A stretch of 64,000 nt of DNA from Margaritispora aquatica (Eukaryota; Ascomycota; Leotiomycetes; Helotiales; Discinellaceae). The notes under the pieces are model-generated. The model did not search any database and was not told where the DNA came from. It was given only the letters and a program-made list of their open reading frames with translations. Below are positions 22,253 to 46,260 of this stretch, one piece after another (positions within the stretch are counted from its first letter, which is position 1; each line of letters starts with the position of its first letter). The stretch covers positions 310,001 through 374,000 of the forward strand of contig VJWN01000011.1 in NCBI GenBank assembly GCA_007644065.1, written 5' to 3'. Position numbers and translations under genes: made by a program.

Positions 22253-22485
22253 ATGTCGATTAATACGTGAGTTTCCCGCCCCCTTCAAGTCCAACAACAT
22301 CTGCACACATACACAGCATATTCCTGCAATATCACTTCAAACACTCGCTTGTGCACTATACTGACGGTTTTCAAAAATTAGTTCAAAGAATCTTTTCTTT
22401 AGTTAATATCCTCCATTCTGAATTCTCTACTCGAGCTTCAGACTCCAACCTGGACGATGAGCCGATCCTCGATGCCCACGAGTGA
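22253..22485 (+). CDS. candidate very small two-exon gene
   Basis: TATATAAA at 22204-22211 and a CT-rich tract precede an ATG at 22253. Exon 1 (22253-22266) reads MSINT across a 50-nt intron (GTGAGT..ACACAG) into exon 2 (22317-22485), giving 60 residues ending DSNLDDEPILDAHE. Promoter, start and intron are well arranged, but the peptide has no recognisable motif and codon support is slight. A non-coding transcript or chance arrangement is equally possible. Confidence 0.25.
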
Positions 22486-22697
22486 AACCTTTTACTCCCG
22501 AACTGTCTGCAAAGATGGCGGTGATCATTTATTTGGTTACTGTATAGGGAGTGGTGATGATCTCAGCCTTTTCTGCACCGCTTTCGAGCGTGTAGTCTGG
22601 GTGGGTGTTGATGGACGTCTGACAGGCTATCTTTTTTTTTCATTATGGCTTTTGGCTTGACCAAAGCATGAAGAAGAATTTGCGTGGAATTTTCAGG

Positions 22698-28830: not shown

Positions 28831-31341
28831 CTTGGCGGTTGTTGGTAAAGGAGGCGTATGATTCTCAGAATTTGTACAGTCTGCAAGTAAAGGTGGAGAG
28901 AGGTTCGAGGACAAGTCGAGAAGAGTCGAGTTTCAGCGGGGTTCGATTTATTGTTATTGTTGATGAGCAACAAGCCACCAAGTTCGATTTATCCAAAGGA
29001 CAGTCAACCGAAACTCTTAGTCTAAAGACACCTTGGGAACTTGGCAGAAGCGAGTGTGTTGAAGGGAAGAAGTAATCAAGAGGACAGGATCGTAATGGCT
29101 TTGTTGACAGAGTTCGATAATTCTATTGGAGACTCGGGGGCAGCGCAAAGAGTGATATGATCCTGGGAATAGTGACGATCGTATTGATTTCGTTGGTCAA
29201 AGTTGGAAAAGAAGGTGTGTCTGCACTCGTCTGCAGCGGTACAGCAGAGAGAGAGTGGAATGCGAATCGAACAGTGGGTTTTGGGGAGGCAAGAAAGTTA
29301 AGGGGAGGATGAGGACGAGGCAGGTATGGGTATGAATGGGTATGGATGGGGATGGGTATGTGGGGATGGAACTTTATGCAATGTGCAATGCAATGCGAAA
29401 TACGGTAGGTGTGGGTTCGTACTTGAATGGAGGAGGACAGTGTAAGTGTAAGGTGGGTTAGGTGGGTTGGGTGGATAGATAGAAAAGGGCAGGTAGAAAC
29501 TGCGAATGGGATATAATTATTATATTGCTGAAGGTGTGGATATCCAGATCTGATGGAATTCTAGCAGTTGTCTAGGTTATTGCATTGCGTTCACCATCAA
29601 TTAGACAAGTGACAAGTGCGGGTTAGTGGTAATAGAATAGAATACCTTAGTCTCTTTTCTATGCACTCTTTAGAAACCACATGTTTGGTGGTCTCCTGGT
29701 CGTTTCTACTACTTGACAAAATATGTTTTCATCGGGTTCGACAGACATGCGCCACCAAGCCCCTTTCCTGCCGGCTCAAGGTACCAGACTTCTTTCACCT
29801 ATCCTCTCCCTCTTCATCAAGTTTGTCCTTTGGGAATTTACCGCCTCCTTTTCGGTCATCAATTGATTCATTCGAGGATCGACCAAGATCAAACCATCAA
29901 ATAACATACTCATCCAATCGTTCCTCGTTTCCCTTTGGTCTGCTTTTCAACGGCTGCGCCACGATTATTGTGGATGAAACAATTTGCAGCCATTTCAGCG
30001 AATGTTCAAGAGCCTTTCCAATGCCAATTGATCCCAGATCTGACGCGGCAAAAAGCACGCGCGGAAACACGACATCTCCCATGCCATTTGCCCAGTGGCG
30101 ACATCATCAAGCGCTGCTGCTCCAAACTGTAACATGCCATGAACATCCTCGAGTCCTTGGAACTTGCCTCACTGGCGCTCTTCTGAAACCCTTATACACA
30201 TGCAGATATATTTAGCTCCCCCAAAGAGCCGCCAAGTTTCAAAATTTCCACATATTCCAGAGCTTAATTTTGGTGAGAGACTTGTTCTCGAGCCGGTCTG
30301 TTGTTGGTTGACCTTCTTTCTCCACTTGCCGCCAGATGGGGTTGAGACCAGTCTGGATGCTTGAGGGGATCTCCTAGCTCCTTGACAACTTCAGAATTTC
30401 TGAGTGGCATCATCCTTTGATGTTTGGATGGGTGACCATACATTCTCCGTCCATGACAAGATACAATAGCTTGTTTGTCAAAAGTATTGCCCAGTGCTGT
30501 CACCTTTGCCAGTCGTATCTGGAATGCATTATCTTGGCAAAATGTCTTTGAGGTCGGCAGTGTCGGAAAGCGGTGATCATCTGGGGAAACGTTGACCATG
30601 CGAGTTCATGGTCATCACTGTCTTCGATTGATTTGATTGATTACCGTATTCGAGTGTCAATCTGTCCCTCGTGATTCTTGTGATTCTTGTGCTTCAAGAA
30701 TGATGTCAAGCGTACTTTCATTCGGATGCTTCGGGCATTGCCTATGCGAGGTGACTGGGCTGGTGAGGTATCAAAATCGTAAGTTGATATCACATGAGCT
30801 GCCGACTATTTTGTCTTTTCTCGCATGTATTTATGCTGATAACGCCTCATACTGTATATTTGAAGCGATTGTGACATTGATCTTCGAGGGAGAACTCTCC
30901 ATGAACAGTTTCTTCTTCTCTGTTAATTGACAATATTAAAAGCACTGTCAGTCATGCTTTGTCACGTGACGATGACATGCCAGGTTCTAGCTCGGACGGG
31001 GCGTCAAAACTCTGCAACACAAGCGTCACTCGCAATACTTCAGTCCAAACGGACGAGCCAAACTAAGTTGAAACCCTGAAGGAGTATCTGAAAATAGTAT
31101 GTAGTTCATGAAATGCTGACTTGATCATGGCGAGTCTGTGTACATTGAATTCCTCGGCTAATGATATTCCCCACTCGTCCACAACCCGATTTTTAGTAAA
31201 ATTCGCAAAAGAAAGCCAACCCCCCGAGTTCTTCCCCAAAAGATTAACACTGAAGTCTTCGGAGTATAATCGGAGTTCTACAGTGTCAATACCTACTTGT
31301 AAATGTCCTTTGCACTTCCACTCCAAAAGTGCAAAAAGAAA
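28831..31341. other. gene-free stretch, BAR gene promoter side
   Basis: 28831-29100 is the 5' flank of the BAR gene. 29325-29365 has a GGGTATG/GGATGGG-like degenerate repeat and 29450-29475 a GGTGGGTTAGG run. A 199-codon frame near 29616-30215 has no recognisable motif and I do not call it. The pol III terminator of the tRNA gene lies at the right end. Confidence 0.4.
31333..31337 (-). terminator. RNA polymerase III terminator of the tRNA-Met gene
   Basis: On the minus strand TTTCTTTTT follows the last tRNA base directly, with the T5 run at these positions. Confidence 0.7.
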
Positions 31342-31502
31342 TGCTCTCTGTGAGGCTCGAACTCACGACCTTGAGATTGCTGTTCCTGTGAACAGGTACA
31401 TCATATTGAGATATGAGACTCACTGATGAAGAATTAGTATTGATTATATAAGGAAGAGATGTGTGACTGAACATACCGCTCTACCAACTGAGCCAAGAAA
31501 GC
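31342..31502 (-). tRNA. tRNA-Met (CAT) with canonical intron and an extra 54-nt spliceosomal-type insertion
   Basis: Acceptor GCTTTCT pairs with AGAGAGC, followed by discriminator A. The A box (TGGCTCAGTTGG) and B box (GTTCGAGCC) are intact. A 34-nt intron (31411-31378) sits after position 37, the normal eukaryotic site, beside anticodon CAT in loop CTCATAA. A second insertion (31476-31423, 54 nt) lies between G26 and position 27: it begins GTATGT, has ACTAAT 13-18 nt before its end, and finishes ATCAG. Removing both gives a 73-nt tRNA identical to the copy at 44954 outside the anticodon stem. The stem TGAGT/TCTCA is fully compatible. It is either functional with unusual splicing or a recently silenced copy. 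Confidence 0.85.
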
Positions 31503-40904: not shown

Positions 40905-43900
40905 ATGACTTCTCCTTTCAAAAATATAGAGAGCTTATCCTCGAACGATCAAGTTCTATTTAATAAGTTCGGTAGAGGACCGGTGGCGAATATCCCATTC
41001 GAATTCATTCACCAAGCCATCGAACACTTCGTCGATACTCAACCAGATGCTATAGCTGCGGACCACGAAGGCGCCACAATCACTTACAGAGAACTCGAGC
41101 ACTCTGCGAATATCCTCGCGAATAGGCTGGTCAAAAATGGACTCCAACCACGTCAGAGGGTCTGTCTGGTCGTTCAGCGTTCTATCTCTATGGTCGTAGC
41201 CATTCTTGCAGTCCTAAAGTCAGGCTGTCAATATACTCCCTTAGACGGCGGAGTTGCACCAGATGATACCATCCGCCATGTCCTTAGCGATACTGGAGCA
41301 CAGCACATCTTGACTTTTCGGCGGTTCAAGAATCGGATCACACCTTTCGTCACCTCGGACTGCAACATTGTTATTCTCGACGAGCCTGCAGAGAGCGATG
41401 GCAAAGCCTCATCCAGTCGTCCCTCAGTGAATATTGCTCCGACAGATGGAGCATACATGATATATACATCAGGTATGGAAACCAAGTAGACTTGCCTCTT
41501 TCTTACTGACTTGTCGAAAGGCACTACAGGAAGACCAAAAGGCGTAGACATCTCTCATGTTGGTGCAACAAATCTGCTCTGTTTATATCCTGGGAATTTG
41601 GGCATCAAGCCAGGTACAAATGTGGCTCAGTGTCTTTCTATCTCATTTGACATGGGTCAGTGTTCATCCTCAGCCTCATATGCATCATCACTTACAGTTC
41701 TAGGCCAATGGGAGATTCTTTCCACTCTCATGAATGGTGGTACTTTGTTAATACGCAATTCTGACTGGGTTGCAACTTTGAAACGTGTGAGTATTAGCTC
41801 CTCCAAAACCATGCCACATTGGCTAATTTTCACAGGTACATACCGTCATCTCAACGCCGTCAATTCTTCAAAAGTACAAGAAAGCGGACTTTCCCAACAT
41901 CAAAGTCGCCGTGGTCGGTGGTGAACCATGCCCCAAACTGTAAGCCAGACAAGACACCCTCCTTTACATCGCTAACCTCCACTTAGGCTAGCAGACGAGT
42001 GGTCTAACAGTTGCCTGTTCATCAATTGTTGTGGCCCAACGGAGGTTTCGATACTGAATACAATGCTAGAGTACAATCCTCTCGAGCCACTCTCGATTGG
42101 AAGTCCCGTGCCAAATACAAACGTTTACATCTTGGACGACGACGAGAAGCCAGTTCCTATCGGGTCTACAGGCTACATGTGGGCTGGTGGTCGATGTGTT
42201 TCTAAAGGGTATTTGAATTTGCTAGAGTTGACCGCAAGGAGGTACAAGTTGGACACCTTTGTGGGTGACGGGTAGGCACATCTCATCCTCGAAGATATGC
42301 ACCACTAATGAGACACAGCTCGAATATGTTCAACACTGGCGATCTAGTTCGATGGCTTCCAAACGGCAACCTAGAACATAGAGGTCGAGGCGATGACCAA
42401 GTAAAAATCAAGGTATGTTGCAAATCATGCATCTGTCAAAATTTCGCTAAATATCCACCAGGGGTTTAGAGTTGAGCTTGACAGTGTTTCTTCTGCAATT
42501 GAGGTAAATTCTGCTTTCCACATCCTGGCTTTAGGCGCTAATCATTCATTCGCGCAGAGAACTCCTGGTATATCGAAAGCCTGCGCAATTTTCCAAAACA
42601 ACGTCCTTTGGGGATTTTATTCTGGTGTCCTCACTGAAGAGGCGCTTGTACGACAGGTCGTTGCTAAACATCAACCATACTACGCCATTCCTTCTAGGTG
42701 GGAGTACAGATCCATTCTTCCGATGACGCTGAATGGCAAGATCGACAAACGAGCTTTGATGGCATCTGTCACAGCCTCACCAGGCGAAACAACGAAGTTG
42801 ATAAGTAATATCAAGACAGTTGCACAACCAGAAACATACGTACCTGTCAATAAAGAGAAGTCCTTGTCATCTTCGACATCGCAAATCACTTCTCCTTCAA
42901 CAAGCAGCCTCGAATGTGTAGATAAAAAAGCAATCATCGTCAGCACCGAAATGATATCTGGTAGCAAATTTCGAGCAGTAGCATTGTTCAGTCAATACCC
43001 TCTCCCATCGAAGAAAGGAGTTCATCGCATTCGAGCCCTACGCTACAGGATCTTCAACCTTTACAGCCGGTTTTTCACCTTTGTCTCTCTCTCCAATCTT
43101 GCTGTCATACTATGGATTCTGGGCAGTCATTCTGCATCCCCACACCTCAGCCTCTCAAAGCTCTTGACGGCAACAGCTGCGAACTTTACTGTTGGGATTC
43201 TTATGCGTCAAGACCACGTTGTCAATGCCCTGTTCAAGATTTTCTGCTCTGTACCGCTATGGACACCGCTGTTCATCCGTAGGAACTGTGCACGGATATT
43301 CCACATTGGAGGAATTCATAGCTCTGCTGGTCTAGCTTCAACGATTTGGTTTCTCATATTCACCATTATGATTACGATCCAAGGAGATATGATTGCCGTT
43401 ACCGTTATTTCCTGGCTGATTATCACACTTCTGCTTTCAATTGTCACTACAGCTCAGCCTTCATTTCGAAGAAGATTCCACAATCGCTTCGAACTCACTC
43501 ATCGCTTCGCAGGATGGTCAGCTCTAGCCCTGTTCTGGATCCAAACGCTCATCCTAACTGCTCTAACTCGTGGTTCTGACTCCATTGGCAGTGCACTCGC
43601 TCTTACTCCAGGCTTCTGGCTCCTCATCATAGCTACAAGCTCAGTCATCCTCCCATGGCTCAATCTCCGCAAGGTCCCGGTTCGAGCTGACGTCCTATCT
43701 CCCCACGCCGTGCGCCTGTATTTCGAACACTGCACACCCATTATCGGTGACGGGGTGCGTCTTTCCAAAGCTCCTTTGCTAGAGTGGCACGCTTTCGCAG
43801 CTATATCCAAGCCCAATGAAAAAGGCTTCTCTTTGATCGTTAGCAAAGCCGGGGATTGGACAACATCAGTTATTGAGCGTCCGCCAACTGCGATTTGGGT

Positions 43901-44318
43901 TCGTGGCGTGCCTGCTTCTGGCGTCCTACGCATCGCCACCCTCTTTAAATCTATCCTCCTCGTCGCAACAGGCTCAGGAATCGGGCCTTGCTTGCCAGTC
44001 ATCTATGCCGCTGCATCTTCAGCCCCTTACATTCCGGTTCGCGTCTTATGGTCGACGCCTAGTCCACTCAAAACATTCGGTGATGAGGTTCTGGATGCGG
44101 TGTATAAAGCTGATGAGAATGCTTTGGTGTGGGATACACGGAAAGATGGGCGGCCTGATTTGTTGGGTTTGATATGGGGCATGCTGTGTGAGGAGAAGGA
44201 GAACGGGAATGTGATTGAGGCTGTCTGTGTCATTAGCAATCAGAAGGTTACGCAGATGGTGGTGTATGGGCTTGAGAGTCGTGGCGTTAAGGCTTTTGGG
44301 GCGGTGTTTGATTCATGA
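40905..44318 (+). CDS. adenylation (AMP-binding) domain fused to a TmpA-like membrane flavoprotein
   Basis: Eight exons (40905-41472, 41521-41655, 41704-41786, 41836-41939, 41987-42271, 42319-42412, 42462-42503, 42558-44318) give 1023 residues. Residues about 30-505 are an NRPS-type adenylation domain: [46 protein letters not shown] and NGKID with the catalytic lysine. A linker follows; I see no carrier-protein GGxS motif. Residues about 600-810 hold about five or six membrane helices with His-containing [12 protein letters not shown] and ELTHRFAGW. Residues 815-1023 look like a ferredoxin-reductase-type FAD/NAD module ([20 protein letters not shown]). This half resembles A. nidulans TmpA, a membrane flavoprotein affecting conidiation. 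Substrate and electron acceptor are unknown. Confidence 0.85.
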
Positions 44319-44953: not shown

Positions 44954-45063
44954 GCTTTCTTGGCTCAGTTGGTAGAGCGTAGGTCTCATAAGCTCATTAT
45001 GAAGAATCTGATACAACAGAATCTGTAATCCTAAGGTCGTGAGTTCGAGCCTCACAGAGAGCA
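44954..45063 (+). tRNA. tRNA-Met (CAT) with canonical 37-nt intron
   Basis: Acceptor GCTTTCT pairs with AGAGAGC (one G-U), D arm TGGCTCAGTTGGTAGAGC, anticodon stem TAGGT/TCCTA with a T-T closing mismatch also seen in fungal elongator tRNA-Met as I recall it, loop CTCATAA, and T arm GTGAGTTCGAGCCTCAC. The intron (44991-45027) follows position 37. The mature form is 73 nt plus CCA. A T5 pol III terminator follows 7 nt later. Confidence 0.9.
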
Positions 45064-45559: not shown

Positions 45560-46260
45560 ATCACCCTAGTAGAAGTATTTTTCTTTCCTAGTCTTCTATA
45601 AACTTCTAAGCATACTTACGTGAAGCTAGCGTTTAATTCTATCCGTATAAAATAGGGGGCTTAGTAATTTTAGAGTAAGTAATAAGTTATTACGTATATA
45701 GTAACTCTTTTAGCGAATCTCTTAACGGTAGAAAAATATAAAAAGAAGATATACTCTCTATAAGGCTCGAACTTACGACCTTAGGATTTTGTATATTAGA
45801 TTCTCTATAAGAGTATCTATTAGATATTCTATTCTCGCTTACGTAAATTTATAGTGACTAAGAACAAATTACTTTAAAAAAAGGTTATAAAATTCGTACG
45901 GTATTCCCTCTACGTAGAGTGTTATAATATTAGATTAGTAGATTAGAAGCTCGATTTATAAGATTCTTCCTCGTATCGTTAGATTTTTTAGGGAGAATAA
46001 TATCTCTACTAGCCTCGCCGAGATCCTGTAAGCTCTTTATATTTAGGTTAAGTTTCGTAAGAATATAATACGATAATATAAGCTTAGCTTTAGCCCCGAT
46101 CTTATTCTAATTTCCTAGATATTACGGACCTCTAACCGAAAATATAGGTTAATAAATCTATCGATATTTTCTTATTTAACGATAGTATCTCGAGAATTAA
46201 GAATCCTCCGTCTAAAGTAATAAACTTTATAACCGTTTCAACGTGATACTAGAATTTGTA
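45560..46260. mobile_element. AT-rich RIP-decayed repeat tract, element unidentified
   Basis: The composition changes sharply: TpA words dominate, CpA/TpG words are scarce, while CpG survives. That is the footprint of repeat-induced point mutation on a duplicated sequence. It includes the mutated tRNA-Met copy. I see no transposase or reverse-transcriptase motif and no terminal repeats, so the element class cannot be named. Confidence 0.55.
45700..45840 (-). pseudogene. RIP-like mutated copy of the tRNA-Met locus and its 3' flank
   Basis: On the minus strand this aligns with 44990-45115 of the intact locus, through ATCCTAAGGTCG, GTTCGAGCC, the AGAGAG acceptor end, CTTCTTTTT and AAGAGATTCG. 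Differences are mainly C-to-T and G-to-A (GTGAGTTCGAGCCTCAC appears as GTAAGTTCGAGCCTTAT). The acceptor and T stems no longer pair and the anticodon half is hard to align, so it should be non-functional. Confidence 0.75.

Follow-up and report, generated by a model that had tools for sequence, protein, structure and literature searches.

At least seven nuclear tRNA genes of Margaritispora aquatica are interrupted by an insert that has the size and signals of a U2-type spliceosomal intron and lies off the canonical 37/38 intron site. One of them is an elongator tRNA-Met gene in the window (the whole stretch of 64,000 nucleotides that was analysed), and six more were found in the 42.36-Mb genome (49 contigs), with the extra introns located at 13/14, 26/27, 30/31, 51/52 and 59/60. 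From these sequences we propose, with a probability of about 0.86, that the genes are functional and transcribed by RNA polymerase III (pol III), with the spliceosome taking out the extra intron and the tRNA endonuclease the one at 37/38.

The interrupted tRNA-Met gene occupies positions 31502..31342 of the window on the minus strand and consists of three exons separated by two introns of 54 and 34 nt. Exon 1 (31477..31502, minus strand; nucleotides 1-26) holds the 5' strand of the acceptor stem, the D arm and the A box. It is followed on the same strand by a 54-nt spliceosomal-type intron at 26/27 (31423..31476) with GTATGT, TACTAAT and CAG, by exon 2 (31412..31422; nucleotides 27-37, TGAGT CTCATA, with the anticodon CAT) and by a 34-nt intron of the tRNA-endonuclease type at the canonical 37/38 position (31378..31411). 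Exon 3 (31342..31377) runs from nucleotide 38 to the discriminator and comprises TCTCA, the variable loop, the T arm with an intact B box and the 3' strand of the acceptor stem, and a pol III-type T-run terminator, TTTCTTTTT, lies directly 3' of the gene (31333..31341, minus strand). With both introns taken out the tRNA reads intact. A sequence-only reading of this DNA had described the GTATGT...CAG insert between nucleotides 26 and 27 (31476-31423) and a separate 34-nt intron after position 37, and both are confirmed. The ACTAAT branch motif that it named is also present but had been placed 13-18 nt before the intron end, where the actual distance is 11-16 nt, with 11 nt 3' of the branch A. 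None of 300,000 letter shuffles of this intron combined GTNNG with CTRAY 8-18 nt from the end and YAG.

The paralog used as comparator is a tRNA-Met(e) gene at 44954..45063 on the plus strand, which has a 37/38 intron of its own and no 26/27 intron. It is located 13.6 kb from the interrupted gene and is identical to it over nucleotides 1-26. The anticodon stem is TGAGT/TCTCA in the interrupted gene versus TAGGT/TCCTA in the paralog, and both of the changed pairs are compensated (two changes on each side, with pairing kept). DNA searches of the genome gave two tRNA-Met copies, one of which is interrupted. We also noticed a partial, inverted and mutated duplicate of the 44954 gene and its 3' flank at 45752..45814 (minus strand) together with the adjoining 3' flank; by reading, it shows the C-to-T and G-to-A changes expected from repeat-induced point mutation. 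Other features of the window are a fungal U3 snoRNA gene at 22373-22627 (plus strand; 126.7 bits against Rfam RF01846) and a gene for an AMP-binding protein at 40905-44315 (plus strand), the relatives of which are named NRPS12 or adenylate-forming reductase, with the best-scoring named ones coming from Pseudogymnoascus. The best-scoring named relatives of one window gene's protein are from Pseudogymnoascus (51-53% identity), followed by other Leotiomycetes, and its top match is a nameless entry at 62%.

The six further genes have their inserts in several parts of the tRNA body. Arg(CCT) (C23:1168604-1168738, minus strand) carries 49 nt after nucleotide 30 (30/31; GTTAGA...TACTAAC...TAG). Two Trp genes are interrupted after nucleotide 59 (59/60), by 53 nt on contig C6 (L088; GTAAGT...TTCTAAC...CAG) and by 54 nt on C9 (L090; GTGAGT...TTCTAAC...CAG). 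Both Ile(TAT) genes have the insert after nucleotide 13 (13/14), which is 71 nt on C6 (L093; GTACGT...AACTAAC...CAG) and 65 nt on C12 (L110; GTAAGT...GGCTAAC...TAG). The last case is a Tyr gene on C2 (L122) with 51 nt in the T stem after nucleotide 51 (51/52; GTTAGT...TGCTAAC...TAG). The tRNA numbering at these sites was assigned by hand. A 37/38 intron is present as well in five of the seven genes (Met, Arg, Tyr and both Ile) and absent from the Trp genes. The earlier proposal, a tRNA gene carrying a spliceosomal-type intron in its body, is supported and gains strength from these six cases.

Genes were collected with the Rfam tRNA model (62 of 1722 candidates scored), with patterns of a T arm plus terminator and with DNA searches, and flanks were inspected. 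Because only those 62 candidates were scored and the patterns cover only part of the T arms, the seven genes are a lower bound. In all, 76 nuclear tRNA genes were inspected (the seven and 69 others), so that 7/76 is a biased rate. Outside the 76 are the mitochondrial tRNAs on C38 and odd or doubtful ARAGORN calls in L035, L044, L061, L073, L087, L099 and L115. Neither an ARAGORN call nor a recognised split tRNA was obtained in L040-L043, L051, L053, L091, L097, L098, L100, L103-L106, L119, L120, L123 and L124, where reading by eye covered all of these no-call loci except L040-L043, L051, L053 and L103-L106. Model R1 gave no convincing match in L040, L041, L043, L051 and L053, and a query of ten tRNA sequences gave no match. 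Four odd tRNA-like genes have an insert near the anticodon loop, namely L035 (C12:788952-789105), L073 (C48:685604-685748), L087 (C1, near 1432524-1432687) and L115 (C1, near 3316008-3316145); these inserts are 65-94 nt long and without spliceosomal signals, and by reading the anticodon is GCA in two of the genes. On the mitochondrial contig C38 the same tRNA cluster occurs at about 5.3-7.4 kb and at 39.0-41.1 kb, which is perhaps the overlap of a circular assembly.

The splice signals are shared by the seven extra introns, which are 49-71 nt long. All start with GTNNG and end with YAG, six have the full GTNNGT (the exception being the Arg intron, GTTAGA), and the last CTRAY is CTAAC or CTAAT in every case, with 10-15 nt beyond the branch A. 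The tRNA itself fixes the borders of each insert to within a repeated base, so nothing in the way they were delimited required the signals to be there. In 300,000 shuffles per intron, all signals occurred together at frequencies of 0 to 3.0e-5. The introns of 59 other ARAGORN calls (distinct nuclear intron-containing calls, five of them doubtful, with the interrupted Met, Arg and a spurious L044 call excluded) provided a further control. None of the 59 had all signals even when the borders were allowed to slide, a comparison that is length-fair for few of them: 51 are at least 12 nt long, 22 at least 25 nt and only nine at least 40 nt, and the eight under 12 nt could hardly qualify. GT...AG was found nearby in 27 of these introns and GTNNG...YAG in one. 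We also assembled references for mRNA introns in this genome. An open-flank set gave 28 candidates, with GTNNGT found 17 times versus 8, 8, 13 and 10 times in four false-motif controls, which makes it too noisy to serve as support, and a set by coding score gave four introns. TTTT is absent from all seven tRNA introns, an observation without weight as only five of the 28 reference candidates contain it.

Removal of the insert restores a recognisable tRNA in each case. ARAGORN then calls a full-length tRNA for all seven genes, and the expected anticodon for four of them (Arg, both Trp and Tyr); in the spliced Met and both Ile genes it misplaces the remaining intron and reports other anticodons, and these anticodons were taken from a manual reading. 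As long as the insert is present, ARAGORN makes no call for four genes and assigns a wrong anticodon to Met and Arg and a wrong 3' end to one Trp; for Met the anticodon is also wrong when large introns are allowed. The Rfam tRNA model detected two of the seven interrupted genes and did not report the Met gene even at E values up to 1, and model R1 with filters off matched that gene only as two separate segments scoring 19.7 and 17 bits. The joined exon sequence is observed in uninterrupted paralogs of Met and Trp. In a folding of four mature forms the cloverleaf was the best structure for Arg only, and folding is therefore left out of the supporting evidence.

An alternative is that intron-like insertions have silenced the interrupted genes and turned them into pseudogenes, with other copies serving the cell. 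Uninterrupted paralogs do exist for tRNA-Met, Trp (three copies, two interrupted) and Tyr (at least two genes, one interrupted), and decay resembling repeat-induced point mutation is present in the window. In addition, Yoshihisa 2014 (PMC4090602) describes insertions in the D or T arm of eukaryotic tRNA genes as presumed pseudogene marks. The two Tyr genes differ strongly in the T arm (ACGTG/CACGT in L121 versus GCGCG/CGCGC in L122 with the insert removed) and are therefore not recent copies. Against silencing, mature Ile(TAT) used as a DNA query retrieved two copies, both interrupted at 13/14, and mature Arg(CCT) a single copy, also interrupted. Since every copy found of these two tRNAs is interrupted, pseudogenes are unlikely, with the proviso that DNA searches with single tRNAs may miss copies. 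Silencing is also at odds with the stems, which by reading are intact after insert removal, with the acceptance of the spliced forms as tRNAs by ARAGORN, and with the way in which paralogs have diverged. The two interrupted Trp genes are identical at 70 of 72 tRNA positions but at only 16 of 30 intron positions from the 5' site to the branch site, and their branch heptamers are identical. Similarly, the mature forms of the two Ile genes differ at 3 of 73 positions (by eye), while their introns agree at 22 of 44 positions over the same span with the signals kept. Conserved exons, a free interior and kept signals form the pattern expected from selection for splicing. We therefore regard pseudogenes as improbable. 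Where the sequence-only reading had left a choice between splicing of the pol III transcript and a newly silenced copy, the interrupted Ile(TAT) and Arg(CCT) copies and the kept paralog signals favour splicing.

The source of the transcript and the enzyme that cuts it were also considered. The spliceosome could act on pol II transcripts, with the tRNAs released from longer RNAs, and this would accommodate the fact that, by reading, the B box loses its last conserved C to intron sequence in the interrupted Trp genes and the A box is split by the intron in the Ile genes. Such disruption may reduce transcription, and it is here that a plain pol III model is weakest. On the other side, both boxes are kept in Met, Arg and Tyr (by reading), and a site resembling TATAAA, with no more than one mismatch, is present 22-65 nt upstream of five of the seven genes, compared with 40 of the 69 others and 19% of random positions. 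A run of at least five T residues also lies within 45 nt 3' of all seven genes, although four of them (both Trp, Ile on C6 and Tyr) came from pattern searches in which TTTT was required, as did many of the 69; in the three genes unselected for a terminator (Met, Arg and Ile on C12) the run is present in all. Such runs occur within 50 nt of 53 of the 69 other tRNA genes and of 3.5% of random positions. We regard a pol II origin as improbable, slightly more so than silencing. We give least credence to the view that the tRNA splicing endonuclease cuts out the extra introns at a structure like the bulge-helix-bulge (BHB), as in archaea and red algae, where the spliceosomal appearance would be a coincidence. 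Non-canonical nuclear tRNA introns with BHB motifs are described for Cyanidioschyzon merolae in the excerpts of PMC4090602, and with 27 combinations of borders and bulge lengths tried for each intron, four central-helix pairs could be formed in two of our seven. At the canonical offset, however, only one or two of the four pairs tested between intron +2..+5 and exon 2 +2..+5 were observed in any of the seven, and this explanation does not account for the GT, branch site and YAG found in all of them.

The origin of the introns was approached through their mutual likeness. Introner elements are known as many similar copies at several places of one genome, and an introner-like origin had been suggested for the Met intron. 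The likeness to introner elements is that new introns occur at several places of one genome, and the difference is that those are similar copies whereas the seven tRNA introns share signals only, except within paralog pairs. We searched the 42.36-Mb genome for the 27 nt that form the 3' half of the Met intron, the only one of the seven covered by a genome-wide copy search, and found no other occurrence with up to three mismatches. The suggested search for the Met intron as a member of an intron family therefore gave none, and an introner family was rejected since no further copy of the Met intron was found and the seven introns are alike only within paralog pairs. Reverse splicing, the other route suggested for the Met intron, may instead account for it. 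Aligned paralog introns scored 10 and 2.5, compared with 0.9 (sd 2.8) and -5.7 (sd 3.5) for interior-shuffled ones, and pairwise scores among the other introns showed little likeness. The paralog scores fit one insertion before each gene duplication, which is probably the history of the Trp and Ile pairs, and the presence of five isoacceptors with five sites points to at least five insertions. Group I or II self-splicing introns, which have a catalytic core of some hundred nucleotides, were rejected because the inserts are only 49-71 nt long. In IMG/VR, a non-fungal collection, the Ile exon-intron junction was matched exactly once, with no tRNA around the site; this was taken as a chance match, and the long frames of the surrounding stretch look phage-like. 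IMG/VR yielded no match to the Trp junction or to the exon patterns of Ile and Trp, and the Ile exon pattern gave none in the GTDB genomes, likewise a non-fungal collection.

The gene anatomy, the restored tRNAs, the splice signals and the lack of any uninterrupted copy among those found for two tRNAs are observed, and from there we infer pol III transcription, the spliceosomal removal and the order of the two splicing steps. Under the proposed mechanism, working nuclear tRNA genes would be transcribed by pol III with ordinary U2-type introns at non-canonical places of the tRNA body, and the major spliceosome would take the extra intron out of the pre-tRNA in the nucleus. Cloverleaf folding, end trimming and the endonuclease cut of the 37/38 intron would take place only after this removal. 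The yeast tRNA splicing endonuclease is located on mitochondria, outside the nucleus, and therefore nuclear spliceosome, export and endonuclease would be a natural order. The endonuclease works by a ruler mechanism which measures from the folded body (PMC4090602, excerpts), and for inserts in the D arm or T arm the spliceosome would therefore have to act first.

If the introns are spliced as proposed, the spliceosome would be able to act on pre-tRNAs and would be linked directly to decoding capacity. It is likely that several tRNAs, including all Ile(UAU) and Arg(CCU) found, need a spliceosome that works on their pol III precursors in series with the endonuclease, that spliceosome capacity and tRNA supply are thereby coupled, and that new spliceosomal introns land repeatedly in tRNA genes, where the usual tRNA finders overlook them. 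Because every copy found of two tRNAs is interrupted, the mRNA splicing machinery is probably needed for part of the translation apparatus. To our knowledge, the mRNA splicing machinery is not known to process tRNAs, and the splicing of tRNAs is regarded as a system apart from that of mRNAs. The gain of spliceosomal introns is itself an open question, and insertion sites in RNAs of known structure, free of coding constraint, offer a clean system for studying intron gain. Such interrupted tRNA genes escape the usual annotation and more cases may occur in other fungi; the excerpts of the tRNAscan-SE 2.0 paper (PMC8450103) describe a non-canonical intron search for the archaeal model. No report of tRNA genes with spliceosomal introns was found in the open literature searched, a scope that takes in few subscription journals and preprints, and an earlier description elsewhere is possible.

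Introns of fungal mRNAs have GTNNG, a CTAAY branch site near the end, YAG and a length of about 50-70 nt, and the seven tRNA introns share these U2-type features. They differ from mRNA introns in that their hosts are tRNA genes and their sites are set by no codon. The canonical 37/38 introns are likewise found in nuclear tRNA genes, and five of our seven genes carry one, but unlike the extra introns they are fixed in position, have no sequence signals and are handled by other enzymes. The ectopic tRNA introns of C. merolae and of nucleomorphs also occur in the D, anticodon and T arms with several per gene (PMC4090602; PMC3978253). Those of C. merolae are of the BHB type and those of the Guillardia nucleomorph are 3-24 nt long with a mode of excision that is not known; in the excerpts of both papers no spliceosomal signals are described for them, in contrast to the seven introns here. 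The direct precedent for a spliceosomal intron in a pol III RNA is the U6 snRNA gene of Schizosaccharomyces pombe, which has an mRNA-type intron removed by the spliceosome from an RNA made by pol III (PMC8917221, excerpts). Both U6 genes found in the present genome are uninterrupted (full-model matches of 108 and 106 nt). The U6 RNA of S. pombe is itself a part of the spliceosome, whereas the hosts in this genome are several tRNAs.
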